Positions 9,586-32,182 of a stretch of 32,826 nt of DNA are shown here, piece by piece. A program made the position numbers and the translations under genes. Each line of letters begins with the position of its first letter. Position 1 is the stretch's first letter. A model generated the notes under the pieces. It worked only from the letters and a program-made list of their open reading frames with translations, ran no database searches and was not told where the DNA came from. Source of the stretch: Okeania sp. KiyG1 (lineage in GTDB: Bacteria; Cyanobacteriota; Cyanobacteriia; Cyanobacteriales; Microcoleaceae); NCBI RefSeq assembly GCF_014132355.1, contig NZ_BLZO01000040.1:1-32826 (forward strand), written 5' to 3'.

Positions 9586-10368
9586 CTAACCGGAAATGAT
9601 ATTACACCGCCGTGCCAACAATAAAGTTAAATCATCATCAGTTCTACCTGTAACTTTAGGCGATCGCAAAAATTCCTCCAATTGTTTAGTCGCTTCTTGT
9701 TCATCTGTCACCACAGTCATAAACTTAAACAATGGTGCAAAAAACGGACAATGAGGCACACCCCTTGGCATATTCAAAGCCAGCATCTGCAACCCATCCG
9801 AAAAAATTGCCAAGTTTACAGTCTTTCCTTGCCAAATCTTCACTTGAGCAGCTTCCACACCTTGCTCTGAAATCAAAAAAGTTGTCTCATTAATATATTC
9901 TCCACTTTGAGGAGCAGTCAGCGGAAAAATATTCTCCTCACCATCTTCCACCACAACCGCACCATCTCCCACCTGAGCAGCAATAGCAAACTCTGGTGTC
10001 GCCACCACCAAAATCAAAGTTGCAGCAAACTCCCGTGCCTCAACTTTCTTCACTTGAGACTCAGCCAAAACTGCTGTCCTGGCAGCTCTCAAAGCTTCAA
10101 TTAACTTATACTGCCAATCAACATTATTATCTTTAGACAACGAATGTTGTTGAGAAATAGTTTCTACTGCAGCACTGACAGCTATTTTCGCCCCTACTTC
10201 CCCAAAACTCGATGAACCAGCACCATCAGCAACTGCTGCAACTAAAATACCTCCCGGCAAAATCTGCCAATGATTTGCATCCTGACATGGTTGTCCACGT
10301 TTTTTGTGACTCGTACCTGCCACTGACGCCGATACCACTCGCCAATGACTTTGTTCTTCTGTTGACAT
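9586..10368 (-). CDS. PP2C-family serine/threonine phosphatase
   Basis: This 260-aa protein is a metal-dependent PPM-type phosphatase of the short, TerY-associated form. Metal-binding acidic residues sit in the expected places: Asp in RGQPCQDANHW, Asp-Gly in AAVADGAGSSSFGE, Asp-Gly in AIFSDGLQML and the Asp run in TGRTDDDLTLLLA. There is no membrane or signal segment. It lies downstream of a vWA-domain gene on the same strand, 253 bp away, which matches the known TerY (vWA)-PP2C-kinase triads. The kinase is not adjacent. The partner phosphoprotein cannot be predicted. Confidence 0.88.
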   Translation of the reverse strand: MSTEEQSHWRVVSASVAGTSHKKRGQPCQDANHWQILPGGILVAAVADGAGSSSFGEVGAKIAVSAAVETISQQHSLSKDNNVDWQYKLIEALRAARTAVLAESQVKKVEAREFAATLILVVATPEFAIAAQVGDGAVVVEDGEENIFPLTAPQSGEYINETTFLISEQGVEAAQVKIWQGKTVNLAIFSDGLQMLALNMPRGVPHCPFFAPLFKFMTVVTDEQEATKQLEEFLRSPKVTGRTDDDLTLLLARRCNIISG

Positions 10369-10436
10369 AACCTAACTTTTGTTCAAGAATTTAGAATTTA
10401 GAATTTAGAATTTAGAATTACCTCTTCTTAATAAAC

Positions 10437-10571
10437 AGGACTTACGCAAATTATTAGACAATACGCTATTTGTAAGAGGCGCCATTCGGAGCTTTGCGGA
10501 GCGCAAATGCCATTTGCTTCGCATAACTATCGTTAACGCCCCTACTAGATATGGCAGCTTGGTGCGTAAGT
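10437..10571. mobile_element. MITE-like element, AGGACTTACGCA ends
   Basis: The left end aggacttacgca (10437-10448) pairs with tgcgtaagt at 10563-10571. The interior includes a repeat derived from the gcaaatgccatttgc palindrome, related to the repeats at 620-780. It sits between the vWA gene and the PP2C gene and so separates the two members of a functional pair. A tttagaa tandem (10388-10419) precedes it, a sequence also seen at 7275-7300. Confidence 0.55.
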
Positions 10572-10621
10572 ATGGTTGAGGAGGAGCTGAAATGCTGACT
10601 GCTGAACGCTGAAGTGCTTCT

Positions 10622-11284
10622 TCAAACTGTTCCCCATCCAGGAGGAGGCAGCGCAACTTGTTCGTCAACTTTAGAATGGGAAACCTGCTGCATACTAGCA
10701 GATAACCAAATAAACATTTCCCGAAAGTCAAGTCCTCTCAGTTTTAGCGGTGTTCTGAGGACAATTTCTCCAAGCTTATCCATATTCGCCCCTTCTACAC
10801 CCACGGCAAAAAAGGCAACGTGTTTGTTATCTTCTTCTTGTCTGATGCGGTCTGCTGCTTCCTTTACAACTTTTTCTGATTCTCCTTGAGGTTCGCCATC
10901 AGTAATCAAAAAAACCCACGGTCGATAGTAAGTTATGCCATTATTCCGATATTCTAACTTCCGAGTTGCAATCATATCCAGGGCTTTGTTAATAGCTGTG
11001 CCCATATAAGTTTGTCCTTGGGCTGTTAATACCGGGTTTTCAAATTGGTCTGCAGTGATAAACTCTTGCACAATTTTTACTTGGTTGTCAAAGGCAATAA
11101 TTGCAACCTCTACTCGTTTTTTGGCTAAGTCATCGGTAATTAAATTATTTCTAAAAGTTTCTAACCCGTCATTTAAAGCTTGAATAGGTGTACCTGTCAT
11201 TGATGCTGAGGTATCTAATAGTAGGACACAAGGACAGCGGGGTTCAGGATTTTCTGCAAATTCGACTGCTTCATCAAGTCTCAT
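10622..11284 (-). CDS. TerY-like von Willebrand factor A domain protein
   Basis: This 220-aa protein is a single vWA domain with an intact MIDAS metal site: DTSAS at residues 24-28 (in VLLLDTSASM), the Thr in QTYMGTAINKAL and the Asp in VFLITDGEP. The C-terminal LRGLDFREMFIWLSASM and the SxSQ-like tail followed by PPPGW are typical of TerY proteins of the tellurite/stress TerY-P triad. TerY is cytoplasmic and is thought to act as a metal-dependent scaffold in a phosphorylation circuit with a PP2C phosphatase and a kinase. The PP2C gene follows downstream on the same strand. The start at 11284 gives MRLDEAVEF and is the only reasonable one. Confidence 0.88.
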   Translation of the reverse strand: MRLDEAVEFAENPEPRCPCVLLLDTSASMTGTPIQALNDGLETFRNNLITDDLAKKRVEVAIIAFDNQVKIVQEFITADQFENPVLTAQGQTYMGTAINKALDMIATRKLEYRNNGITYYRPWVFLITDGEPQGESEKVVKEAADRIRQEEDNKHVAFFAVGVEGANMDKLGEIVLRTPLKLRGLDFREMFIWLSASMQQVSHSKVDEQVALPPPGWGTV

Positions 11285-13637: not shown

Positions 13638-14552
13638 ATGGTACAGCCAACTCTTACCCCTATCTACTCAAATCAACCTATAACATGGGTAAACTCAGTT
13701 TTTGCACGTCACGAGACGTTTCACCCTCGTTTTGGTTGGTTGAAAAAAGGTTTTGATGCAGCAAAAAAAAATCCAGAAGTTTTTTTGAAGGAGGATGCGA
13801 CAGTGCATTTGGGAGTAGGAAAAAATATGGTACGCTCCATTCGCTATTGGTGCAATACTTTCAAAGTTCTTGAAGGGGACAAACCATCTGAGTTTGGTAG
13901 TAAGCTCTTTGAAAAGAGAGGGTGGGACCCTTTTTGTGAAAATCCTGCCTCTCTGTGGTTATTGCACTGGAATTTACTGAAACCTTCCTGTAATGCTGCG
14001 GCGTGGTATTTTACTTTTAACCGTTTTCATCGACATGATTTTACTGTAGATGACTTATTTAACGATTTATCTGAATATTGCAATAATAATTTAGGAAGTC
14101 GCACTGCTGAGTCATCTTTAAAGAAAGATATTTCTTGCATACTCAGGATGTATGTACCACAACCACTTAAAGGTCAAATTAGTGAAGATAGTTTAGATTG
14201 TCCGTTTACAGAATTAGGTTTGCTACACACTGCTGGAGACTCTAGACGTTATAGTTTTCGAGTCGGAGAAAAGAAAAATTTACCACCGGAAATTATTGTT
14301 TCTGCTTGCTTAGAATATACTGCTTGGATGGGTAGTCAAAAAACCATCGCCCTTTCCCGATTATTATATGATTCAAGTAGTCCGGGTATGGTATTTAAAC
14401 TTACTGAAAGTGCAATATGTGATGCTATAGAAAAAGTTAGCCGACAGTTTAATTCTTTATACCTATCAGATACAGCAGGTTTAATTCAATTTGCTTTTAA
14501 TGACGAACCAGTTGAACTAGCAACAGAGATTCTCAGGTATTATTATAATTAA
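13638..14552 (+). CDS. sspB: DUF4007 protein, SspB-like phosphorothioation nickase
   Basis: This 304-aa protein shows the DUF4007 signature: FARHETFHPRFGWLKKGFDA near residues 22-41, DATVHLGVGKNMVRSIRYW (52-70) and WFTF/WLLHW aromatic motifs. It ends in a region predicted to be mixed alpha/beta. DUF4007 proteins occur in DNA phosphorothioation loci. In the Ssp system the DUF4007 protein SspB nicks DNA so that sulfur can be placed in one strand of the backbone. The next genes fit the rest of that system (large ATPase, DndC-like ATP pyrophosphatase, DUF262 nuclease), so the SspB assignment rests on family plus context. It is separated from the ATPase gene by 199 bp that contain a repeat element. 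Which residues catalyse nicking cannot be told here. Confidence 0.82.
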   Translation: MVQPTLTPIYSNQPITWVNSVFARHETFHPRFGWLKKGFDAAKKNPEVFLKEDATVHLGVGKNMVRSIRYWCNTFKVLEGDKPSEFGSKLFEKRGWDPFCENPASLWLLHWNLLKPSCNAAAWYFTFNRFHRHDFTVDDLFNDLSEYCNNNLGSRTAESSLKKDISCILRMYVPQPLKGQISEDSLDCPFTELGLLHTAGDSRRYSFRVGEKKNLPPEIIVSACLEYTAWMGSQKTIALSRLLYDSSSPGMVFKLTESAICDAIEKVSRQFNSLYLSDTAGLIQFAFNDEPVELATEILRYYYN

Positions 14553-14751
14553 TAATTAATAATTAATAATTAATAATGGATAATTAAAACTACAGCACTT
14601 TCCGTTGTTATGAGGTACACTATCGCGGGCAAGATGCCCGCACTACATATTTTTACCTAATTATCCATTGAAAAGGAGAGGATTTAAACCTCTAGGAATT
14701 AATTATCAATTATCTATTATTAATTATCCATTGGTAAAACCGAGTTATTAA
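14553..14751. repeat. Repeat element between sspB and sspC
   Basis: A ttaataa tandem (14551-14573) and the inverted pair ggataatta (14578-14586)/taattatcc (14656-14664) enclose the palindrome gcgggcaagatgcccgc. The block 14592-14647 is the reverse complement, with differences, of 24707-24764 beyond the other end of the ssp genes. It probably splits what was one operon. Confidence 0.6.
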
Positions 14752-17700
14752 ATGACAAAAATACAATCAAAAACTTTATCAAATTATTTTCAACTTAATC
14801 GCCGTTATTCTCGTTCTATTAATTTGGAACGAGACTTAGCAAAACAAGATTCTCTAGATGGTTATGTTTTGACAGAAAGAGCAGTTGATGCTCTCAGACG
14901 CATTTTAGTAGGTTTCGTCAACCCACAGGGAAATAAAGCTTGGACTTTAACGAGTGTTTACGGAACGGGAAAATCAGCTTTTGCTCATTATCTAGCTTGT
15001 ATTTGTGCTGATAGCAAAAGCTCTAGTCGCCAAAAATCTCTAGAAATTACAGCAGAAACACTAGGTGCAGATAGTCCTGAATATATTGACTTGTGTGACA
15101 ATATTCCGAAACAAGGATTTTTTATAGCTGTAGCGACAGCGCAAAAGGAAGCAGTTGGCAATACAATTATTAGAGCGTTACAAACAGGAGTAGAAAAATT
15201 TTGGACTCCTACAAAACGAAGCAAAATAAATGTTGTTAAGAAAATTACTGATTTTGTTAGTGAGATAGATGCAGGTAAAACAGTAGATAGTCGAGAAATA
15301 CTTCCTCTGATTCAAGAAATTGCTGAAGTTGCCAAAACAGATGTATTACTAATTATTGATGAATTAGGGAAAAATTTAGAATATGCAGTTCATAATCAGG
15401 GTTCAGAAGACCTTTATTTGTTACAACAAATAGCCGAATTGCCTACGACAAGTAAAAACAATAGTGTCTACATTTTAGGAGTATTACACCAAGCATTTTC
15501 AGATTATGGAGAAAGGTTAGCATCTGTTCAAAGGAACGAATGGGCAAAAATTCAAGGAAGATTTGAGGATATTCCTTTTCGTGACTTACCCGCTCAAATG
15601 ATGCGATTGATAGGTGAAGCAATTGAAGCTAAACCAACACAAAAAGTTAGTTCTAAAATATCTCAAGCAGCACAAAAATGGTTTGATATTTTGCCTGATG
15701 ATATTGTCTCTGATACTACTCCAGAGATAATAGCATCTACCTATCCGCTCCATCCCATCGCAGCTTTAGTATTGCCGACTCTCTGTACCCGCTACGCTCA
15801 AAATGACCGCTCTCTATTTACTTTTCTCACCAGCGCTGAACCCTTTTCCTTCCCTAGCTTTTTAGAGGAAACAACTTTTAATCGAAATACTTTGCCTACA
15901 TTAAAATTGGCAAGAGTTTATGATTACTTTATCGAAGCAGTAGGTATGGGATTAGCTTCTCGTCCTAATTTGCAGCGATGGGTAGAAATTCAAGGATTAA
16001 TTGCTGATGCTAAACATCTGGATGTTGATAGTTTACAGGTATTAAAAACAATTGGCACTTTAAATCTGATAACTACAACTGGTTCAATGCGAGCAACTCG
16101 AAAAATGGTAGCATTGGCAATGTGCGATAGTGCTGATGATGAAAGAGTGCTGGAAAGTTGGGAACTGGTAATAGATACCTTATTAAAGAAAAATCTGATT
16201 ACTCATCGACGACAACTTGACGAGTTGCGGATATGGCAGGGTTCTGATTTTAACGTTGATGGAGAATTAGTAACTTATCTTGAGCAAGAGCGATCGCCAC
16301 TGGTTGAGCTTTTATCTGAGTTAAGACCTCTCAAACCTCTAGTTGCTCAAAGTCATAGTTATAAAACAGGTACGTTGCGTTATTTTGAACGTCAATATCT
16401 TGATGGGAGCAGAAAATTCTCGGAGTTGGTTTGTTCCGAACCAAGTATTGACGGGTTTGTTGGTTATTGGGTTGACGATACAAAACCTAAAAAAGTTCCA
16501 TCTCTGACAGCAGATGGTAAACCTTTAATTTTGGTTGCTGCGGGAGAATTAGATATTTTGAGAATTACAACTAGAGAATTTGCTGCTCTGACAACTCTGA
16601 ATAAGAGTGCGCCAGAATTACAAAAAGACGGGGTAGCAAGGCGAGAGGTGCGTTATCGTTTAGCACAAGCTGAAACTGCTCTTGATGAAAATTTAGAGCA
16701 AGCATTTGATGTATCATTGCCAGAAAATCTGTGTTGGGTGAATGGTAAAAATAAAACAATTAATCGGGTAACTGATTTTAACGCTCAACTGTCAAAAGTA
16801 TGCGATAAAATTTACCATAAAAGTCCGATTCTCTGGAATGAATTAATTAACCGTCGGGAACTTACTGCTCAAGGTGCAGCAGCAAGGCGAAAATTAATTG
16901 AAGCAATGCTCGAATCTGCTGAACAAGAGCGACTCGGATTAGATGGATATGGACCAGAAGTGAGTATTTATTATTCTGTGTTGCATGAAACGGGTATTCA
17001 CCGACAAGAGGGAGAAGAATGGGGATTTTATCCACCTGCGGAACATTCTAAATTATGGTATTTGTGGGAAGCAATTGAAGAATTTTGTCTGGGAGCAACA
17101 GAAAAAACTAAGACGTTTGAGTTATTGAATGAATGTCTTGCTCAACCTCCTTATGGAGTTAAAGAAGGTGTAATTCCAATTGTTTTGGCTGCAGTTTTGC
17201 TGTATCATGTTGATGATTTTGCTGTTTATAAAGAAGGTACATTTTTAACTGTATTAGGTTCAGAACACTTTGATTTAATGGTAAAAGCTCCCAGTCGGTA
17301 TGGGGTTAAGTATTTTGAATTGGTAGGAGCGCGATCGCAAGTATTTAAGGAATTAGAGGCAATTTTACGTCAATCAAAGGCTAAAAAGTCAGATAAATTG
17401 CGTAATGCTACTCTCTTGTCTGTGGTTAAACCTTTAATTCAATTTGTGAATAAGTTACCTAAATATACTCAAGAAACAGAAAGGATGATACCAGAAGCTA
17501 AAGCTGTTTTGAAAACGCTACAAAAAACAACCGAACCAGACGAACTGTTATTTGTGGAGTTACCGAAAGCTTGTAATCTTGCTCCTATAGGAACTAAAGA
17601 AGAAAATGATACTGAAATCGCAAAAACTTTAAAGCAGAAGTTAGTGCAAGCTTTAAAAGAAATCCATACTGCTTATGACAAAATGTTGAAAGACTGTCAT

Positions 17701-18222
17701 AAATTACTGTATGAAGCTTTTGGAGTTCGAGAACAAGAAGCTAAATTACGGGAAGACTTGGCAGTAAGAGCTAACTATATTTCTGGAAAATGTGTTGAGT
17801 CTGTACTGAAGAGGTTTACACAAGCAGCGATCGACACAACTACCACAGACGAACAATGGTTACAAGCAATAGTTATGATTATCGCGGATAAACCTCCTGA
17901 GTCTTGGCAAGATAGTGATGTGACAGCATTTGAAATGAAGCTTGCAGATATTGCTAGACGGTTCAAAAATATGGAAACTCTACAGGAGGAAATCAAAACA
18001 ACAGGAAAAGAAGTTGAAGTACGCAAAATTACAATTACAAAACCTGATGGAAACGAAACTCATCAAACTGTTTGGATAGAAAAAGAGCAAAAGCAGATTA
18101 GTAAAATCGAACTGTTAATTGAGAAAACTTTAAATGATGATTTATTAAGAGATAATCCTCAACTTCAGCAAACATTTTTAGCGAAGTTAACAGAAAAGAT
18201 ATTCGGAACAAATTCAGATTAA
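14752..18222 (+). CDS. sspC: Large P-loop ATPase, SspC-like phosphorothioation protein
   Basis: This 1156-aa protein has a P-loop near its N terminus (SVYGTGKS, 68-75, with Lys74) and a Walker B LLIIDELGK (Asp203-Glu204), followed by a long helical region. The fragment ASTYPLHPIAALVLPTLCTRYAQNDRSLFTFL (about 328-360) resembles the sensor/lid part of large defence ATPases of the BREX and phosphorothioation systems. The C-terminal third is Lys/Glu-rich and probably helical (about 970-1150). Its size and position between the DUF4007 and PAPS-reductase-like genes match SspC, the ATPase needed for sulfur incorporation. No nuclease or helicase motif was recognised. It carries HIP1 sites like its neighbours, so base use gives no sign of recent foreign origin. 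A BrxC-like alternative cannot be excluded from sequence alone. Confidence 0.75.
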   Translation: MTKIQSKTLSNYFQLNRRYSRSINLERDLAKQDSLDGYVLTERAVDALRRILVGFVNPQGNKAWTLTSVYGTGKSAFAHYLACICADSKSSSRQKSLEITAETLGADSPEYIDLCDNIPKQGFFIAVATAQKEAVGNTIIRALQTGVEKFWTPTKRSKINVVKKITDFVSEIDAGKTVDSREILPLIQEIAEVAKTDVLLIIDELGKNLEYAVHNQGSEDLYLLQQIAELPTTSKNNSVYILGVLHQAFSDYGERLASVQRNEWAKIQGRFEDIPFRDLPAQMMRLIGEAIEAKPTQKVSSKISQAAQKWFDILPDDIVSDTTPEIIASTYPLHPIAALVLPTLCTRYAQNDRSLFTFLTSAEPFSFPSFLEETTFNRNTLPTLKLARVYDYFIEAVGMGLASRPNLQRWVEIQGLIADAKHLDVDSLQVLKTIGTLNLITTTGSMRATRKMVALAMCDSADDERVLESWELVIDTLLKKNLITHRRQLDELRIWQGSDFNVDGELVTYLEQERSPLVELLSELRPLKPLVAQSHSYKTGTLRYFERQYLDGSRKFSELVCSEPSIDGFVGYWVDDTKPKKVPSLTADGKPLILVAAGELDILRITTREFAALTTLNKSAPELQKDGVARREVRYRLAQAETALDENLEQAFDVSLPENLCWVNGKNKTINRVTDFNAQLSKVCDKIYHKSPILWNELINRRELTAQGAAARRKLIEAMLESAEQERLGLDGYGPEVSIYYSVLHETGIHRQEGEEWGFYPPAEHSKLWYLWEAIEEFCLGATEKTKTFELLNECLAQPPYGVKEGVIPIVLAAVLLYHVDDFAVYKEGTFLTVLGSEHFDLMVKAPSRYGVKYFELVGARSQVFKELEAILRQSKAKKSDKLRNATLLSVVKPLIQFVNKLPKYTQETERMIPEAKAVLKTLQKTTEPDELLFVELPKACNLAPIGTKEENDTEIAKTLKQKLVQALKEIHTAYDKMLKDCHKLLYEAFGVREQEAKLREDLAVRANYISGKCVESVLKRFTQAAIDTTTTDEQWLQAIVMIIADKPPESWQDSDVTAFEMKLADIARRFKNMETLQEEIKTTGKEVEVRKITITKPDGNETHQTVWIEKEQKQISKIELLIEKTLNDDLLRDNPQLQQTFLAKLTEKIFGTNSD

Positions 18223-18329
18223 AATATCAATAAAAATTCACTAATTATGGTTGTTTTGTAAAGCTGGTCATTGTTCTGTAAAATTTTACTTGCTAAGATT
18301 AGAAAGCCACTTTTAAAATAACTGCAACA

Positions 18330-19130
18330 ATGGCCAAAAACAAAGTTAGACATATTCTAGGTTTATCAGGAGGTAAAGATTCTACCGCCTTAGCAATTTT
18401 GCTGCATCAAGAAATTCCAGAGATGGAATATATTTTTTGTGATACTCAGAAAGAATTACCGGAGACCTACGAATATTTAGAGAGAATCAAAGCGCGTTTA
18501 GGTATAAAAATCCATTATTTGAATGCTGCAAAAGGTTTTGATTACTGGTTAGCAATACATGATGGTTTGCTCCCCTCACCTCAAAAACGTTGGTGTACTG
18601 TCAAAATGAAAATTGAACCTATAGAAAAGTACATTGGAAATGACTTGACATATAGTTACATAGGTATTCGAGCAGATGAGGATAGGGAGGGTTATATTTC
18701 GACAAAGCCTAATCTTAAACCCATTTTTCCTTTTAAAGAAAGAGGATTAGTTAAAAAAGATATTATTTCGATTTTAGAAGAAAGTGGTATTGGATTGCCT
18801 AAGTATTATAAATGGCGCAGTCGTTCTGGTTGTTATTTTTGTTTCTTTCAACGTAAATATGAATGGGTAATGTTGGCCCAAGAACATCCCGACTTGTTTG
18901 AAAAGGCGATCGAATATGAAGAAAAACATCAAGATGGTAGACATTATACTTGGACTAATGGAGAGACTTTAAGAGAACTTTTAGCCAGAAAAGATGAAAT
19001 TATTGCTAAACATGATGAGGCAATGGTTAAGGAAAAAAAAGCTGCTCCAAAGCGGCCTTTAGTTGAGTCTTTAGAGTCAGTTTTAGATGAAGAGGATGAT
19101 ATTTTGCCTTGTTTGGTTTGTCATTTATAG
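18330..19130 (+). CDS. sspD: PAPS-reductase/DndC-like ATP pyrophosphatase, SspD-like
   Basis: This 266-aa protein carries the PP-loop SGGKDST (13-19) of ATP pyrophosphatases, then RWCTVKMKIEP (Cys89), RSGCYFCFFQRKYEW (Cys168, Cys171) and a C-terminal CLVC (Cys261, Cys264). Several cysteines in this arrangement are known to hold an iron-sulfur cluster in DndC. The enzyme is thought to activate the DNA backbone with ATP so that sulfur from a cysteine desulfurase can replace an oxygen. Length fits SspD; DndC proteins are about twice as long. It is followed after 15 bp by 19146-19865, so these are almost surely cotranscribed. A role in a different sulfur-transfer pathway is possible but unlikely given the context. 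Confidence 0.87.
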   Translation: MAKNKVRHILGLSGGKDSTALAILLHQEIPEMEYIFCDTQKELPETYEYLERIKARLGIKIHYLNAAKGFDYWLAIHDGLLPSPQKRWCTVKMKIEPIEKYIGNDLTYSYIGIRADEDREGYISTKPNLKPIFPFKERGLVKKDIISILEESGIGLPKYYKWRSRSGCYFCFFQRKYEWVMLAQEHPDLFEKAIEYEEKHQDGRHYTWTNGETLRELLARKDEIIAKHDEAMVKEKKAAPKRPLVESLESVLDEEDDILPCLVCHL

Positions 19131-19145
19131 GATGCAAAATTATTT

Positions 19146-19865
19146 ATGAATTTAAAAAGTTATCATTTACGAGTTTGTGACAATTTGAAATCCATTATAA
19201 ATGAGTCACATACTCAACTAGATTTAGGAAAATATCATGTTTTTTCTAGTGATTTATTGCAATGGTCAAATATTCTTAAAAGTCAGGGAACAGAAATGAA
19301 AGTTTTGGAAAACGTAGCATATGAACTACAGTTTTCAGTTTTTCTAATATCCTCTGGACTCTATAGGCAAGCATTTGCGTCACTAAGATTAGTATTGGAA
19401 TTGGCTTTATCTGGAATACTATTTTCTTCTGATGAATTTTATTTCCGTAAATGGAAACAAGGTTTAGCAGATATATCATGGCAGAAAATAACAGATAAAG
19501 ATACTGGAATTTTTTCAATAACATGGTTTAAAGCATTTTGTAATTCAGAACCCGAGCAAAAAGATAGGGAAGATATTGAAGCAATTGCAGAATTAGCTAA
19601 GGAAACATATCGAAAATTATCAGGGTATGTTCATGGGGGTAATTATACTTGGGAAACAAAGGATTCTCATATAGTTTTTAATCAAACACAATTTGATTTA
19701 TGGAAAAGTTTATCTGACAATACTTCAAGAATTATACTTTATTCGCTCTTAGTTAGATTTTCTCAAGACCTATCTTCAGAGAATTTAAGCAAAGTAGAAG
19801 ATTGCTTAACTAATATTATAGATGATATAAAAATAACTAGAGTTATTTTAGGAAGACCTTTATAG
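19146..19865 (+). CDS. Helical protein of unknown family, HEPN-like motif, in ssp operon
   Basis: I do not recognise a named family. The 239-aa protein is predicted to be mostly alpha-helical, without signal or membrane segments. Residues 57-90 (VAYELQFSVFLISSGLYRQAFASLRLVLELAL) look like a packed helix pair. Residues 149-164 (ELAKETYRKLSGYVHGG) contain Arg156 and His163 in an R-x6-H arrangement, which fits the R-x4-6-H motif of HEPN nucleases and the YxxLSxYVHG motif of uncharacterised defence-associated proteins. The gene starts 16 bp after the sspD-like stop and ends 23 bp before an ATPase gene, so the three form one unit. An RNase or toxin role is inference from motif and context only. 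It could equally be a structural partner of the ATPase. Confidence 0.6.
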   Translation: MNLKSYHLRVCDNLKSIINESHTQLDLGKYHVFSSDLLQWSNILKSQGTEMKVLENVAYELQFSVFLISSGLYRQAFASLRLVLELALSGILFSSDEFYFRKWKQGLADISWQKITDKDTGIFSITWFKAFCNSEPEQKDREDIEAIAELAKETYRKLSGYVHGGNYTWETKDSHIVFNQTQFDLWKSLSDNTSRIILYSLLVRFSQDLSSENLSKVEDCLTNIIDDIKITRVILGRPL

Positions 19866-19888
19866 TTGATAAAAGGAGCTTTAAATAT

Positions 19889-21498
19889 ATGTTTTATCTA
19901 AGAACTGAAAGTATCAGAGATGAAGAAATAAAAACAATTTTTGTATCAACTGATTTAGAAAGACAAATTATTGATGCTTTAAAATCTCAAAATCCTACTG
20001 TATTAGAAGGAAGTCGAGGAACTGGAAAGACTTTTTTGTTAAAAATGTGTCAAATTGAATTAAATGAAAAATATAATACAGAAAAATATTACCTGTATAT
20101 CTAACTTTCTCAAGAGCTACACTTATTCAAACTAACGATCCTAATCAATTTACAAACTGGATGATGGCTAAAATTTGCAAGGAACTTTATCGGCAACTTT
20201 GCTATAAAGGATTTCTAATAGAGAATGTTCCTTCTAATCAATTGCTTTTCAATAACAACTTAAGTACCGAGTCTCTTGAATCAAAATTTAAAAATATAAT
20301 GCAAGCTTATGAAAATTCTTATCAAAATGCAAATCAAAATCTAGATAGTTCTATTATTGCTGGTATTCCTGAAGTAGAAGATTTTTTGTCAACTGTTGAA
20401 GAAGTATGTAAATTTTATAAAATTCAAAGGATATGCTTTCTTTTTGATGAAGCTATTCATATGTTCAGACCTCAACAGCAAAGAGAATTTTTTTCTCTTT
20501 TTAGGATGCTTAGAACTCCCTACATTGATTGTAATGCAGCAATTTATCCTGGTGTAACTTCTTTTGGAGATTCATTTGAAAGATTTCATGATGCAAATTT
20601 GATGCGTCTGGAGAGAAATATAAAAGATAATGATTATTTGAATACTATGGAAGATATTGTTTATAAGCAAGCAAATGAAGAACAAATAAGAAAAATAGAA
20701 AAGGAAAAAGGCAACTTTAAAATTCTTGCCTATTCTGCCAGTGGAAATCCTAGAATATTGTTGAGAACTCTAGATAGATGTAACAATTTAAAAACGGATA
20801 CAATAATCAAAGTTATTAAAGACTTTTACATTGCAGATATTTGGTCTGAACATTCAGCTTTAGGGGAAAGATATACAGGGCATAGAGAAATTGTTGATTG
20901 GGGAAGAAACTTTATTGAAAAAAAGGTAATTCCTTCAACTCAAGATAAAAATAATCGCAGAATAAAACATGAAGAATCAACTTGTTATTTTTGGATTGAT
21001 AGAGACGCACCTGAAGTAGTGAAAGAGTCTTTAAGACTATTAGAATACACAGGTATTCTCAGAAAAAATGGAGAAAGAATCAGAGCAACTTATTCTAGAA
21101 TAGGTACACGCTATGAGATTAAACTAGGATGTATTTTAGCTATTGAAAAATCTAATAAAACCGCTAATCAAATAATTGATTACTTAGATGATTACTTGTT
21201 TACTGAATATAGTCGTAACAGCAATGCTTTTTCCAATCTCCCAAATCCAATCAGTTTAGAGTCAGACTCAGAAATACGAGAAATAATTAATAATTTACTT
21301 CAAAAATCTATTAGTAATTTAAGCCTAACGAATTGGCAAAAAGAGCAACTTATAAAGAATAAATTTAATACCATTAATGATGTTTTAACTGTTTCTGAGA
21401 AAAAACTAATTAAGAGCATTCGTGGTGTAGGAGAAGTTAAAGCCAGAAGAATTCAGAATGCAGCAATCGCTGCAATTTTAGAATATCTTTCTGGTTAA
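19889..21498 (+). pseudogene. P-loop ATPase with C-terminal helix-hairpin-helix, frameshifted
   Basis: The first part (19889-20104) holds Walker A GSRGTGKT (residues 41-48) and stops after KYYLYI. The open frame resumes in another phase and runs to 21498. It has a Walker B (ICFLFDEA, near 20434), a sensor-like arginine stretch (GDSFERFHDANLMRLER) and near the end RGVGEVKARRIQNAAI, a helix-hairpin-helix DNA-binding motif. Adding one C to the CC at 20092-20093 gives ..KYYPVYLTFSRATLIQ.., a natural join, so the intact protein would have about 536 residues. A good Shine-Dalgarno (aaaggag, 19872-19878) precedes the ATG. It looks like an ORC/STAND-type ATPase; I know no established role in Ssp. It is tightly linked to the HEPN-like gene. 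Error or true inactivation is unresolved. Confidence 0.75.
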
Positions 21499-21660
21499 AG
21501 ATACTTTTCACTCATTATTATCCTAATTATAAAAGTAGTCTTTCGATAAAATTGTTACAGGCCACTATACTTATTTTTATGTAGTCAAATTATACAATAC
21601 AATAAAATCACTCAGAAATTAAAATTTTCAGGATTTGTTTTGAGGTTAATAACAACAGCA

Positions 21661-21667
21661 AAAGGAG
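21661..21667 (+). promoter_or_regulatory. Ribosome binding site of the sspE-like gene
   Basis: aaaggag lies seven bases before the ATG at 21675, a near-consensus Shine-Dalgarno. It fixes the start MVDISSAF. The 176-bp gap from the preceding ATPase gene is AT-rich and may carry a separate promoter for the nuclease. Confidence 0.7.
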
Positions 21668-21674
21668 TCAAAAA

Positions 21675-24017
21675 ATGGTTGATATATCATCTGCATTTAT
21701 TACCCGTAGTGAAACAGTATTAGAATTTTTTCAAAGACCAGGAGTTGGCTTATACATTCCTTTATACCAACGACAGTATAGTTGGGACAAAGAAAATATA
21801 GATCAACTAATGGAAGATATCTGTCACGGTGTAGAAATGCGTGTAGAACAAGACAATGCTATTCGTTTTTTAGGAACTATTATTTCAGTTGTAGAATCTA
21901 ATTCAGATGCTAATATTAATCCAAAAGATAAAAAGGCATTACCCACACGAATTGAAAACATTATAGATGGGCAGCAAAGAATATCAACTATTGCTATATT
22001 GGCTTGTTTATTGTACCAAAAAATAGTAAATATTCTTAACCAATTACTTGATGAAATCAAAAATCACGGAATGGAAGAAGCAGCAAAAAGTTACTTAGAT
22101 AAACTATTAGGTATATTTTCACTCGATCTACAGCGAGGTTTGCCACAAAGAAAACCAATTATTATTAGGGGGGAGATAGATAATTGGACTTATGCAGGTA
22201 ATGAAAATGATTACTATAAATCTGATATATCCCTGTATATAGCATCATTTATTAGTGCTATCATAGAAAAAGAAAAAGAAGAGAAAGAACAAGGAGAAAA
22301 AAAAGTCAAGATACAGTTTCCGAAACCTCCACGCGACTCCTTAGTAGAGAAAAATATAAAATTAATCAACACATGGCTGAGAAAAGTAGAAAAAGCCTAT
22401 GATGGAGATGGTAATAACAGTTATCCTACTGCTTGGAAAATATTAGATAGTCGTTTGTCTCAAAAATCTTTATGGAGTTATGAAAGACCCGAATTATATG
22501 ATAGAGTTCTCTGTAATAGTAACCCGATGTCTGCTCAAGATAAAAGGGTTTGTTCTCTAGTTCAAATTTTTGCTTTTTGCCATTATTTACTTGATTGTTG
22601 TTGTTTTACTGTAATTGAACCTAAAACAACTGATTGGGCATTTGATATGTTTCAATCCTTAAATGCTACAGGAACACCTCTGACTGCTATAGAAACTTTT
22701 AAACCGATAGTTGTTAATTATTGTAACTTAAACAATAACAATGGTAGTGGATTTAGAGGTTCTAAATCAGAAGAATACTTTTCTCAGTTAGAAGAATTAC
22801 TAGGAACAGAAAAAACAGCAGCAAGCAAAAATAAATTAACTAACGAGTATCTTACCACGTTTGGCGCTTACTATAACGGAGAAAACAAGCCACCTAGACA
22901 ATTTAGCACACAACGAAAATGGTTAAATGATAAATATTCAAATGAAAATGAATGTAAAACTTATGAAGAAAAAGAAGATTTTATTAGATGTATGGCAGAT
23001 ATAGCTGATTATTGGAAGAATATAATTCAGTTTGAGCCAAACAAGTATAGTGCTTTACCTAAAACAGATAAAGTGACAGAAAGCGATCGAAAAGAATCAG
23101 CAATTTGTGTTATGTACTTAGAGGATGCTAATCATAAAATGGCTCGTGCTTTGCTGAGTCGATTTTATTCCCTAGTTTTGCGCGATGAACCAGGTAGAGA
23201 TAGTGAATTTGTTTATGCTTGTAAAAAAGTTGCAGCGTTTTTTACTCTTTGGCGTTCAGCATTACCTAATACAGGTCTTGATGACGCATATAGGAAAATA
23301 CTTAGAACAAAAATGTCCTGGAAAACTTGCAACGAAAAAGGCAATAAACAGCTAAATAAAGAAACACTATCTGAGTGTTTTATGGATGAGTTGAAAGAAA
23401 AAAAAATAGGTACTAAAGAAGAATGGAAAAATAGAGCAGTTTCATATTTACTGTACGATAATAATATCAAGAAAGTATGCAAATTTGTATTATTTGTCAC
23501 AGCTCACGACACCATTCCAGACCCTGATTATCCTGGATTAATGAAACCTAGCTCGCCAGGTACTTGTTTGTATCTAGAACCTAATAAGTGGGTATCTAAA
23601 GACTTTAATAGTATAGAACATATAGCTCCTCAAAAACAATCTGAAAAAGAAGAGTTTACACAAGCGTGGGATGATAGTTTGAATTATGAAAGTATTGGAA
23701 ATTTAACTCTATTACCTACTGAAATTAATTCTTCTGTAAGTAATAAAACATGGATAGGAAAGTGGATTTACTACAAACATCTAGCAGAATCTAATCCTGA
23801 TATAATCAAAGACTTAAAGCAGGAAGCAAAAGATAGCGAAGTTAAACTAGAACAAAAAACAATTAATTTGTTTAAACAAGCGTCGTTTCAACATCACATC
23901 GAGCCCATAGTAAAATTGGGAAAAGATGGAACATGGAACAAAAAATTAGTGCAAGATAGAACTGAACGAATATGCGATATTTTATGGGACAGAATGTATC
24001 AGTGGTTATCAGAATAA
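21675..24017 (+). CDS. sspE: DUF262/DUF1524 nuclease, SspE-like phosphorothioation-sensing effector
   Basis: This 780-aa protein has an N-terminal DUF262 domain and a C-terminal DUF1524 (HNH-type) domain, as in the GmrSD restriction family. The N-terminal motif IPLYQRQYSW (Tyr31, Gln32, Arg33) and IDGQQRIST (Asp98-Arg102) are the conserved DUF262 elements; in SspE the DGQQR motif supports NTP hydrolysis and the YQR region helps sense phosphorothioate. The C-terminal part has SIEHIAPQ (His649) followed by IGNLTLLP (Asn676) and a further Asn/Ser/Lys stretch, an HNH-like site. SspE cleaves or nicks non-self DNA and is stimulated by the host's phosphorothioate marks. Motifs look intact and the length fits. 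It is last in the plus-strand block. A stand-alone Gmr-type enzyme is the main alternative, but the context favours SspE. Confidence 0.87.
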   Translation: MVDISSAFITRSETVLEFFQRPGVGLYIPLYQRQYSWDKENIDQLMEDICHGVEMRVEQDNAIRFLGTIISVVESNSDANINPKDKKALPTRIENIIDGQQRISTIAILACLLYQKIVNILNQLLDEIKNHGMEEAAKSYLDKLLGIFSLDLQRGLPQRKPIIIRGEIDNWTYAGNENDYYKSDISLYIASFISAIIEKEKEEKEQGEKKVKIQFPKPPRDSLVEKNIKLINTWLRKVEKAYDGDGNNSYPTAWKILDSRLSQKSLWSYERPELYDRVLCNSNPMSAQDKRVCSLVQIFAFCHYLLDCCCFTVIEPKTTDWAFDMFQSLNATGTPLTAIETFKPIVVNYCNLNNNNGSGFRGSKSEEYFSQLEELLGTEKTAASKNKLTNEYLTTFGAYYNGENKPPRQFSTQRKWLNDKYSNENECKTYEEKEDFIRCMADIADYWKNIIQFEPNKYSALPKTDKVTESDRKESAICVMYLEDANHKMARALLSRFYSLVLRDEPGRDSEFVYACKKVAAFFTLWRSALPNTGLDDAYRKILRTKMSWKTCNEKGNKQLNKETLSECFMDELKEKKIGTKEEWKNRAVSYLLYDNNIKKVCKFVLFVTAHDTIPDPDYPGLMKPSSPGTCLYLEPNKWVSKDFNSIEHIAPQKQSEKEEFTQAWDDSLNYESIGNLTLLPTEINSSVSNKTWIGKWIYYKHLAESNPDIIKDLKQEAKDSEVKLEQKTINLFKQASFQHHIEPIVKLGKDGTWNKKLVQDRTERICDILWDRMYQWLSE

Positions 24018-24850: not shown

Positions 24851-26023
24851 CTACATTATTTCCCTAATTGCAAAAACAACCTCTGACAAAATTTCAACTG
24901 CTCGCTCTATTTCCTCCTCCGTCGTAAACTTCCCAATACCTATCCGCAACGCTCCCTCCATTTCCTCCCTAGACAAACCTAACGCTCTCAAAACATGAGA
25001 AGGAGCTTCGACACCAGACGAACAAGCAGCTCCAGTAGAAATAGCCAACCTCGATCGCACTCTAGCAATAATCGCACTATTAGGAATACCAGGAATAGAA
25101 ATATGCAAATTTCCTGCTAAACGAGACCCAGTATCCCCATTCACAACTAAACCGGGAATAGCTGCCATCAATAACTCCTGCATTTTATCTCGCTTAGTGG
25201 CGATCGCTCTCTCATCCTCCACCATTTCCAATTTCCGCAAACGACACGCTTCTCCCAAACCAACTATTCCGGGTACATTCAAAGTACCAGACCTCATACC
25301 TTTTTGATGTCCGCCTCCATAAATTAAAGGTTTGAGACGATATCCTTTTGCCACCACTAACGCTCCCACACCTTTAGATGCGTAAAGTTTGTGCCCAGAA
25401 ATAGTCAAATAACTAATTCTCCACTCAGCAAAATTTATTGGTATTTTTCCCACTGCTTGAGAAGCATCACAAAGAAAAGGAATTTGATATTTTTGAGCAA
25501 TTTTACCAATCTTTTCAAGAGGATAAATATTGCCTATTTCATTATTAGCTGCCATGACACATAATAGAGAAATTCCTCCTGCACAAACATTCTCTAAATA
25601 TTCTAAATTAACTCTACCTTTTCTATCAACTTGAAGCCAAATAATTTCTGCCAATTTTTGTTTAACTAGAGCAGCGCAAGTATCAATAACTGCTAGATGT
25701 TCTACAGGTAGAATAGCAATCCGAGGTAAAGTAGAATAACTATTTCTAAAAATATGACCGAAAATAGCCAGATTAATACTTTCCGTCGCTCCCGATGTCC
25801 AGATTATTTGTTTCGGCGAGGCTCCAATTAACTCTGCCACATTTGATGCAGCTTGAGTAACTGCTATTTCTGCTTCATCCCCATATTGATGATCCACACT
25901 ATTAGCATTGCCGAATACTTCAGTCATCTGATAAAGGATTTTTTCAGCTACTCTCGGATCGACAGGAGTAGTAGAATGATAGTCGAGGTAAATAGGTCGA
26001 TTTTGATTATTATTAATTGTCAT
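24851..26023 (-). CDS. Cysteine desulfurase (IscS/NifS family; possible SspA role)
   Basis: The enzyme takes sulfur from cysteine as a persulfide for iron-sulfur clusters, tRNA thiolation or DNA phosphorothioation. Starting at 26023 (MTINNNQNRPIYLDYHSTTP) it has 390 residues. The longer frame up to 26089 adds 22 residues that look like translated repeat, so I reject it. Visible sites are the PLP pocket TSGATESINLAI, the PLP lysine Lys212 in ISGHKLYASKG, and the catalytic cysteine Cys334 in STGAACSSGVEAPSHVLRAL. It is a class V aminotransferase fold with the long active-site loop of the IscS group. The gene converges on the ssp block across the higBA remnant. Dnd/Ssp systems need such an enzyme (DndA/SspA), but a housekeeping enzyme placed here by chance is also possible. 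Confidence 0.9.
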   Translation of the reverse strand: MTINNNQNRPIYLDYHSTTPVDPRVAEKILYQMTEVFGNANSVDHQYGDEAEIAVTQAASNVAELIGASPKQIIWTSGATESINLAIFGHIFRNSYSTLPRIAILPVEHLAVIDTCAALVKQKLAEIIWLQVDRKGRVNLEYLENVCAGGISLLCVMAANNEIGNIYPLEKIGKIAQKYQIPFLCDASQAVGKIPINFAEWRISYLTISGHKLYASKGVGALVVAKGYRLKPLIYGGGHQKGMRSGTLNVPGIVGLGEACRLRKLEMVEDERAIATKRDKMQELLMAAIPGLVVNGDTGSRLAGNLHISIPGIPNSAIIARVRSRLAISTGAACSSGVEAPSHVLRALGLSREEMEGALRIGIGKFTTEEEIERAVEILSEVVFAIREIM

Positions 26024-26164
26024 TTCAGTAGTCCTGTAGGGTGCGTTTTGCTGCGCAATATGTTTCGGATGTCGCCGACATGAATACATAGCATTCCGTC
26101 AGGAAAAAGGCGCTTACGACAAACTATAGTTGAACTGTCAAATATTACGTTGTGTCGTAACGCA

Positions 26165-29459: not shown

Positions 29460-32182
29460 ATGGTTCAAAATGCATCTACCCCTGCTTTGACTCAGGGACA
29501 GCTCTCTGATGTCTTGGGATATCAACTTTCACAAAAAGAAATAGAAAATTGCTTTAAAACTACAGAACATTTGACACCAAAAGTTGGTCAGTTTTGGCAA
29601 GCAGGAGATGCTCAACCAGGTATATATATTGTAACTGTGGGCAAAGTTAGACTATTAGATAGTCAGGGTGAATTAATCACTACCCTCAATGCAGGAGCGT
29701 CATTTGGGGAATCGACCCTATTTCCTAATCATTCCTTTCAACCCTACTCTGCAAGAGCATCAGTAAACCTCAAACTTTCCTATATTCCTGGAGAAACCCT
29801 TCTTCCACTAATTCAAAAACACCCTGAAATCGAAGAACATCTTCATCAAGTTGCTCTCAAACTCGATTCTCTACAGAAAAAGGTGAGCCAGAAACTGCCC
29901 ATTCCTCTGATGAAAATCTGCCAGAAGCGAACATAACTGAATATCGGCAACCAGAGGTTAAACCACAAAAAACTATTAACAAAGCTTATTTCCCTAGTCC
30001 CACCCAACGAGTAGGTCATCTCTGGCAGCGCATCACCAAACGCTATCCTTTCTTTGCTCAACAAAGCGGTTCTGACTGTGGTGCTGCTTGTTTAGTTATG
30101 GTCGCTCGTTACTGGGGCAAAAATTTCAGCGTCAATCGGGTGCGGGACATTGCCAACGTAGACCGTAATGGTGCTTCACTGCGAGGATTATCTGCAGCAG
30201 CAGAAAGTATCGGATATTCCACCAGACCAGTAAAAGCAAGTCTTGACCAACTAGCTAAACAAAAATTACCAGCGATCGCTCACTGGGAAGGCAAACATTA
30301 TGTAGTAGTCTATGAAATAACTCCCAAACAGGTGATCATTGCTGACCCCGGTATTGGTCAACGCCATCTCACTTACCCAGAATTTCAAGCTTGTTGGACT
30401 GGTTACACCCTACTCTTACAACCTACTGCTTTAATCAAACAACTCAAAAATTCCACTACTCCCTTCTGGCAATTCTTTGAGTTGGTCAGTCCTCACGGAC
30501 AAGTGTTGCTGGAAGTATTTATCACTTCCATACTAATTCAACTATTTGGATTAATTACACCTCTATTTACCCAACTACTACTAGATAGGGTAGTTGTTCA
30601 AGGTAGCACTCTAACTCTAACCGCAGTGGGATTGGGTTTAGTCATCTTTGGTTTATTCAGGGTGGCAATGACTGGTTTACGACAATATTTGCTCGACCAC
30701 ACAGCTAATAAAGTACATTTAGCAATGATTGTGGGGTTTATTCGTCACACATTCCGACTACCCATGAGTTTTTTCGAGTCTCGTTATGTGGGGGATATTA
30801 TTGCTCGGGTTCAAGAAAATCGGAAAATTGAGAATTTCCTCACTGGGGAAGCTCTTTCTATTGTGTTGGATTTGCTGACAGTTTTCATTTATTTAGGATT
30901 AATGTTCTGGTATAGTTGGAAAATGGCTTTACTAGCATTAGTTATTGTGCCACCGTTTTTTTTATTAGCACTTATTGCCACACCTTTCCTACAAAAAATC
31001 TCTAGAGAAATATTTGCAGCTCTATCTGAAGAAAGTAGTTATCTGATTCAATCTCTGACTGGTGTAAGTACTGTCAAGTCTCTAGCAGTTGAGCAAACAG
31101 TACGCTGGCGATGGGAAGAATTTCTGAATAAGTCAATCAGAAAAAACTTTTCTGGACAGGTGATTAGTAACCGACTGCAAATATTCAGTTTAACTATTGA
31201 ATCGTTAGTAACGACAGGGTTACTCTGGTTTGGAGCTTGGTTGGTGATTCAAGGGGAGTTAACTATTGGGCAGTTGGTGGCTTTTAATATGTTGATTGGT
31301 ACTGTGATTAGTCCTTTTCAGCGACTGACTGTTTTGTGGAATCAATTACAGGAGGTAATTATTGCGGTGGAGCGCATTAATGATGTTATTGATACTGAAC
31401 CAGAGGAAGATTTACAATCAGAAGGACGTCAGTATTTGGTAGAGTTACGGGGTAATATTATTTTTGATAATGTGACTTTCCGTTACCACCCAGAAAGCGA
31501 TATTAATGTTTTGGAAAATTTGAGTTTTGAGGTAAGAGCGGGACAAACTGTGGCTTTAGTGGGGCGTTCTGGGTCTGGGAAAACAACGATTTCTAAGTTG
31601 GTTTTGGGGTTGTATCCACCTACTGATGGGAAAATTTTGATTGATGGTTATGATATAACGACGATTTCGTTGCCATCCCTGCGCAACAAAGTAGGTGTGG
31701 TTGACCAGGATACTTTTTTATTTGGTGGCACTATTCGGGAAAATCTGACTATTGCTCATCCCTCTGCAACTCTTGAGGATATTGTACGAGCAGCAAAGTT
31801 AGCTGGTGCTGATGAATTTATTCAAAGGTTGCCAATGGGTTATGAAACTCAGATTGGTGAAGGTGGGGGTTTGTTATCTGGTGGTCAACGGCAAAGATTA
31901 GCGATCGCTCGTGCTTTGTTAGGAAATCCTCGTTTGTTGGTTTTTGATGAGGCCACTTCTCATCTGGATGTTGAGTCGGAGCGTATTATTCAGACAAATT
32001 TGAATACTATTCTCCAAGGTCGCACTACGTTAATTATTGCTCATCGTTTATCTACTGTGAGAAAAGCTGATGTAATTTTGGTGTTGGATAGGGGGGTGTT
32101 AATTGAACAGGGAAATCATGAAGAATTGATGGCGAAACGGGGACATTATTATTATTTGAATCGTCAACAATTGGAAAGTTAA
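29460..32182 (+). pseudogene. CNBD-C39 peptidase-ABC exporter, frameshifted
   Basis: The protein would export peptides, cutting their leader after a double-glycine. The first part (29460-29936) is a cyclic-nucleotide-binding-like domain (VGQFWQAGDAQPGIYIVTVGKVRLLDSQGELI, FGESTLFP). After the frame change come the C39 peptidase (SGSDCGAACLVMVARYWG, catalytic Cys, and HYVVVYEI with the His), six membrane helices (about 30530-31350) and an ABC domain with GRSGSGKTT, LSGGQRQRLAIARAL, LLVFDEATSHLD and the AHRLST switch His. The frame open from 29882 has no ATG before 30098, and that ATG would cut off the catalytic Cys. Adding one A to the A5 run at 29877-29881 joins the two parts as LQKKGEPETAHSS.., about 907 residues. 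No double-glycine precursor was found nearby. Error or true frameshift is unresolved. Confidence 0.85.

Follow-up and report, generated by a model that had tools for sequence, protein, structure and literature searches.

The window described here, a 32,826-nucleotide stretch of DNA from the cyanobacterium Okeania sp. KiyG1 (NZ_BLZO01000040.1, contig C40 of a 10.98-Mb genome in 198 contigs with an estimated completeness of 92%), holds an Ssp-type locus for DNA phosphorothioation and defence. The genes of this locus include: (i) SspB, a DUF4007 protein of 304 amino acids (aa) (13638..14552), (ii) SspC, a P-loop ATPase of 1156 aa (14752..18222), (iii) SspD, a sulfur transferase of 266 aa that resembles PP-loop/3'-phosphoadenosine-5'-phosphosulfate (PAPS) reductases (18330..19130), (iv) SspE, a DUF262/DUF1524 nuclease of 780 aa (21675..24017), and (v) an SspA-type cysteine desulfurase of 412 aa (24851..26089), which is on the minus strand. 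Two further genes are inserted between sspD and sspE and, like sspB to sspE, are on the plus strand; they encode a 239-aa protein of probable HEPN fold and an ORC (origin recognition complex)/Cdc6-like ATPase in a broken reading frame. A first-pass annotation, made from the letters alone, had proposed that SspB, SspC, SspD and SspE form a locus that makes and senses phosphorothioate (PT) DNA. All four open reading frames (ORFs) are present within its coordinates and on the plus strand; the SspA-type gene, which lies outside its coordinates, and the two inserted genes, which lie inside them, are absent from it. The whole is best explained, with a probability of about 0.9, as an SspABCD-SspE locus for phosphorothioation and defence that is complete and has an inserted two-gene, most likely autonomous abortive-infection cassette.

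The SspA-E genes and their assignment

For each of the four core genes, PADLOC ranks the Ssp family given above first; the genes follow one another as B-C-D-E with an SspA-type gene nearby, in agreement with the system type proposed in the first-pass annotation; its domain calls hold as well. SspB, presumably the component that recognizes and nicks DNA, matches the PADLOC SspB model (4.5e-123) and the solved SspB structures 6juf/6lb9 (5.3e-57), and the DUF4007 family, whose absence the annotation had named as a refutation, is matched far above the cut-off (PF13182, 347.5 bits; cut-off 27). SspC is recognized by PADLOC (E=0) and has the P-loop motifs GTGKS (71-75) and DELGK (203-207), while no Pfam family is above cut-off and no PDB match is found by sequence search. 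SspD (PADLOC, 2.9e-113) has the PAPS_reduct domain (PF01507, 57.8 bits; cut-off 22.5), the PP-loop SGGKDS (13-18) and the cysteines C89, C168/C171 and C261/C264. SspE (PADLOC, E=0) is composed of a DUF262 domain with DGQQR at 98-102 (GmrSD_N, PF03235, 97.1 bits; cut-off 33.2) and a DUF1524/HNH domain (GmrSD_C, PF07510, 40.2 bits; cut-off 23). This DUF4007 locus is the only one found in the genome.

A DUF4007 protein, an ATPase and a PAPS reductase are common to Ssp and to type-4 bacteriophage exclusion (BREX) systems, according to the available part of PMC12839542, and the best BrxC model also matches SspC of the window (469.4 bits, 5e-141); both points would fit a type-4 BREX locus. The SspC model, however, scores 1526.5 bits on the same protein, which places the ATPase nearer to SspC than to BrxC by profile score rather than by a tree, and SspE is present. 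At the level of profile scores, the grouping with BrxC that the annotation had named as a refutation is thus not seen. In addition, neither PglZ nor BrxL is seen in the 18 ORFs scanned (17 by Pfam, 14 by PADLOC) of the 23 that reach at least 100 aa in the window, and six putative BREX4-like loci of the same phylum (L069-L071 and L073-L075) differ in gene order, and their B and C proteins share only 22-28% identity with those of the window. A type-4 BREX locus is thus not supported; it is rejected as exceedingly improbable.

The full length of SspE of the window aligns by phmmer with Escherichia coli SspE (EcSspE, 20yv; 8.6e-103), and nearly its full length with Streptomyces SspE (StSspE, 6jiv; 1.8e-76). 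Defence by EcSspE is reported to be lost on mutation of Y63, which serves PT sensing, of R133, which serves GTP hydrolysis, or of N724, which serves nicking (PMC13251355). The corresponding residues of the window, as read by eye on the phmmer alignment, are Y31, R102 and N685, and the HNH histidine is H649. With these key residues conserved, SspE appears to be of the working type, and the retention of Y31, R102 and the HNH residues makes an ordinary SspABCD-SspE system the best reading.

The desulfurase SspA of Ssp systems is encoded by a linked gene, or its function is supplied by IscS. The desulfurase of the window is scored about equally by the DndA (3e-133) and SspA (5e-132) models of PADLOC. 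It is 58-70% identical to the desulfurases of 16 other cyanobacterial Ssp loci, compared to 42% for its nearest paralogue in the same genome, and in a tree of 24 sequences it groups with these 16 Ssp-linked enzymes and apart from three paralogues of its own genome, with moderate support (90/57). K234 and C356, which we take to be the pyridoxal-phosphate lysine and the active-site loop cysteine, are kept.

The broken frame of the accessory ATPase could indicate a locus in decay, or a solitary modification system that no longer has active defence. Against this, SspA to SspE are all of full length with their key motifs, and the ratios of nonsynonymous to synonymous substitution (dN/dS) relative to Planktothrix are 0.18 for SspB and 0.11 for SspC (synonymous sites of SspD are saturated). 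Decay is, on this evidence, quite improbable, and the Ssp locus itself is ordinary and well conserved.

The sequence itself shows which Ssp genes are present, their order, the families they belong to and the conservation of key residues. Their function is assigned from homology to studied Ssp strains, in which single-strand PT occurs in 5'-C-PS-CA-3'; sulfur in the DNA, a target motif and antiviral activity are predicted on the same basis. SspA would take sulfur from cysteine, and SspD, an ATP-using PP-loop enzyme, would hand it on, while SspB and the SspC ATPase would locate and open the DNA site such that PT is placed in one strand. SspE would sense the PT mark via its Y31 pocket and hydrolyze GTP via R102, and its HNH nickase would then be released onto invading DNA.

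Scans for promoters and terminators are, in that order, at chance level (50 found vs. 49.4 expected, and 7 found vs. 7.0 expected). Elsewhere in the window, a PP2C phosphatase lies close to a von Willebrand A protein (9586-11284, minus strand), a pair that we take to resemble a TerY-P type set, and a cyclic-nucleotide-binding protein is followed by a peptidase-C39 ABC exporter of the bacteriocin/RiPP (ribosomally synthesized and post-translationally modified peptide) kind (29460-32182).

The two-gene insertion between sspD and sspE

The first inserted gene (19146..19865) starts 15 bases past the end of sspD. Its 239-aa product is all-helical and includes an R156-x6-H163 motif, of which both residues are invariant in five of five sequences and are also kept in the Planktothrix locus described below (L083); the HEPN motif is defined as R-x4-6-H. 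In a VIA-align structural comparison, HEPN-type folds head the match list with unrelated helical proteins close behind (7.9), while Foldseek returns nothing below E 0.42 and a sequence search of the family against solved structures gives no convincing match (best E 0.03, to a designed protein).

The accessory ATPase is encoded by two pieces in different frames. The first (19889..20104; 71 aa) has a Walker A motif, GSRGTGKT, and ends at a stop; the second (20083..21498) is open from 20083 with its first ATG at 20161, which would give 445 aa, and is 44% identical to an intact copy (L040). The ORC-CDC6-like family PF24389 (cut-off 27) is matched by the L040 copy at 59.7 bits and by a Snowella copy (L039) at 42.4 bits, while a distant copy (L042) is below cut-off at 16.9 bits; the second piece of the window, which is the part covered by the Pfam scan, has no PF24389 match when taken alone. 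This piece has a weak, below-cut-off helix-hairpin-helix-like region at its C-terminus, and the ATPase profile matches only RNA polymerase alpha among solved structures, over the C-terminal part (E 0.0013). A programmed frameshift is not supported, as the copies of L083, L079, L080 and L081 read through in one frame. The break in the window may reflect decay or an assembly error, either of which would fit the sequence. Barring an assembly error, the broken frame means that the cassette is probably inactive in this genome.

Of 386 genomes from the phylum, three have the 239-aa gene and four the ATPase, the Okeania genome being counted in each; when genome contigs were first scanned, with the ATPase piece of the window as query, nothing was found, and a second, alignment-based scan found four loci. 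The close pairs seen number six, with three inside an Ssp locus (the window, Snowella and Planktothrix) and three outside. In Snowella (G133, of the same order as Okeania; its contig has the content of record QBMS01000031.1), the locus starts with SspB-C-D and the pair and runs on into a second contig with a helicase, a GHKL ATPase, a phospholipase-D protein and SspA (L039 and L082), the join of the two contigs being deduced from the split ATPase. On plasmid p2 of Planktothrix agardhii (L083), genes for a helicase, an ATP-binding (GHKL) protein, a DUF2779 protein and a phospholipase-D protein come after SspB-C-D and the pair; the DUF2779 protein at the end of this locus, next to the phospholipase-D protein, has a weak Cas4-type match (1e-07; L083:25979-28436). 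The pairs that have no adjacent Ssp genes are those of Cyanobacteria bacterium RI_101, a Verrucomicrobia bin and a Methylacidiphilales bin, and a search of the rest of these three, possibly incomplete, assemblies finds no DUF4007. In a sample of the phylum of the Verrucomicrobia locus, only the starting genome is positive (1/194). The ATPase is absent from the viral contigs and phage records searched and is matched in five plasmid records, of which that of Planktothrix is close and the other four, from Rhizobium, Limimaricola and Cupriavidus, are distant (23-26% identity).

The fourth ATPase genome of the phylum (G195) has the distant copy, and no Ssp genes are found in the 18 kb fetched around it. 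This ORC-like ATPase overlaps an upstream gene of 252 aa with a YSELSKGVHH stretch, a HEPN-like motif minus the arginine (L042:7683-9943). Kinship of the 239-aa family with this neighbour is not claimed because the profile comparison aligned 30 columns only, with a probability of 0.9 out of 100.

In the window, the G+C content of the pair is 0.25-0.30 compared to 0.35-0.37 for SspB-D. At fourfold sites, and after correction for composition, the pairs of the window and Planktothrix are more alike (0.379, 95% range 0.271-0.488) than their cores (0.128, 0.072-0.193). The pair may thus have a history separate from the core, although its greater likeness could equally result if synonymous sites changed more slowly in the pair. 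On a tree of the core, the pair requires two changes; the SspBCD cores of the window and Planktothrix are sisters (100% by the Shimodaira-Hasegawa-like approximate likelihood ratio test, SH-aLRT), so plain inheritance of a pair present in both is possible.

These data bear on whether the pair is instead a working part of Ssp, such as a back-up effector under the control of PT or SspBCD, and not an independent passenger. Consistent with such a role, the pair occupies the same slot, from sspD to the effector, in three loci with two kinds of effector, its first gene follows sspD so closely, and the available parts of PMC10853773 and PMC12839542 describe back-up endoRNases, including HEPN proteins, for Dnd and BREX loci. 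By contrast, complete pairs occur in the three genomes in which DUF4007 was not found, the base composition and synonymous distance of the pair differ from those of the core, and the ATPase of the window is broken while SspBCD-E is intact. A dedicated Ssp role is, therefore, unlikely, and the HEPN-like/ORC-ATPase cassette is most likely an autonomous abortive-infection module, as judged from its sequence and distribution. In such a module, the ATPase would sense invasion and unleash an RNase.

The stretch after sspD in other cyanobacteria

DUF4007 is found in 45 of the 386 genomes of the phylum. Besides the window, 37 DUF4007 loci were fetched for comparison and 7 were left out; SspB is more than 40% identical in 30 of the 37, and 20 of these 30 have a recognisable SspD. 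The genes after sspD in the cyanobacterial Ssp loci L039-L068 and L083 include DEAD helicases with GHKL ATPases (and at times phospholipase D), DndB-like proteins with GIY-YIG-like genes, SspFGH and SspE. By count, and with classes that overlap such that one locus may appear in several, the 20 loci have SspE in one, SspFGH in three (L046, L061 and L065), the HEPN-like/ATPase pair in one, a DEAD helicase in 11 (two as fragments; 10 of the 11 with a GHKL ATPase) and a long DndB-like protein in 8 (6 of these with a GIY-YIG-like gene). These names come from PADLOC/Pfam scans of representatives, of which some matches are weak (PbeA-like, 3.2e-30; MzaB, 2.9e-18) or below cut-off (DndB, 0.00027; GIY-YIG, 0.008), and absences are lower bounds as some loci (e.g., L044 and L048) end at the borders of the fetched stretch. 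Other variants include a second DUF262 protein after sspD (L062) and, 3' of SspE in L063, a second, divergent set of SspB-like (292 aa) and SspC-like (1574 aa) proteins, which is recognized by clustering and unnamed in a stricter panel.

In this sample, the genes placed after sspD differ between loci in a way that does not match the SspBCD tree, and SspE is rare. The SspBCD proteins of L044, L046 and L048 are almost the same, but SspFGH in L046 takes the place that the long DndB-like protein has in the other two loci. On an SspB+C+D tree of 21 loci (19 of the 20, L053 being dropped for a broken SspC, plus the window and L083), six cassette labels require 13 changes compared to a shuffled mean of 12.8, with 148 of 200 shuffles as low; among these loci, cassette type thus shows no association with the core. 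Four effector classes require 10 changes on the same tree, a count that stands without a shuffle control. The tree is a quick one from a small sample, in which the long branches of L063 and L065 are uncertain.

Of 2,678 sspBCD loci in a 2021 survey, 2,211 have neither SspE nor SspFGH, and the survey raises the question of unknown effectors (PMC8092258). One tentative reading, at somewhat under even odds, is that the stretch from sspD to sspA in cyanobacteria is an effector exchange slot in which the core is combined, independently of descent, with SspE, SspFGH, DEAD-helicase/GHKL-ATPase sets, DndB-like/GIY-YIG sets and other cassettes, that the HEPN-like/ORC-ATPase pair is an immunity module, autonomous and so far undescribed, which has repeatedly entered this slot, and that the cassettes of the slot are the partners missing from about four-fifths of the surveyed sspBCD loci, those with no known effector. 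The loci compared offer candidate effectors in one slot and make the missing-effector question directly testable. The interest lies in this slot of interchangeable genes and not in the Ssp locus as such. Literature searches on Ssp and effectors, DUF4007, BREX accessory genes, cyanobacterial PT, HEPN/ORC-CDC6, DUF5677 in defence and SspBCD with PbeABCD, in the text available and with supplementary files outside the search, gave no description of the HEPN-like/ATPase pair or of a comparable exchange slot in Ssp loci.

Comparison with known systems

The locus is most like the SspABCD-SspE systems of E. coli 3234/A, Vibrio FF75 and Streptomyces, with which it shares the SspB-C-D-E order, a nearby cysteine desulfurase and an SspE of DUF262/HNH type with the PT-pocket Tyr, the DGQQR Arg and the HNH Asn. 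Unlike these systems, it has a two-gene insertion between D and E, a cyanobacterial host and an SspA gene that is convergent on the other strand. SspABCD-SspFGH, as described in the available part of PMC8092258, has the same modification core, while the effector of the window is SspE instead. Type-4 BREX has in common DUF4007, a BrxC-like ATPase and a PAPS reductase, whereas the window has SspE, with PglZ and BrxL unseen in the ORFs scanned. An extra RNase is a known theme, given the back-up HEPN/endoRNase genes of Dnd and BREX neighbourhoods reported in the available parts of PMC10853773 and PMC12839542, and the window likewise has a defence locus of the DNA-modification kind that encodes a probable HEPN protein. 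Unlike those back-up RNases, the HEPN-like gene of the window is paired with an ORC/Cdc6-like ATPase, lies within the Ssp operon and not at its border, and belongs to a pair that also occurs alone.

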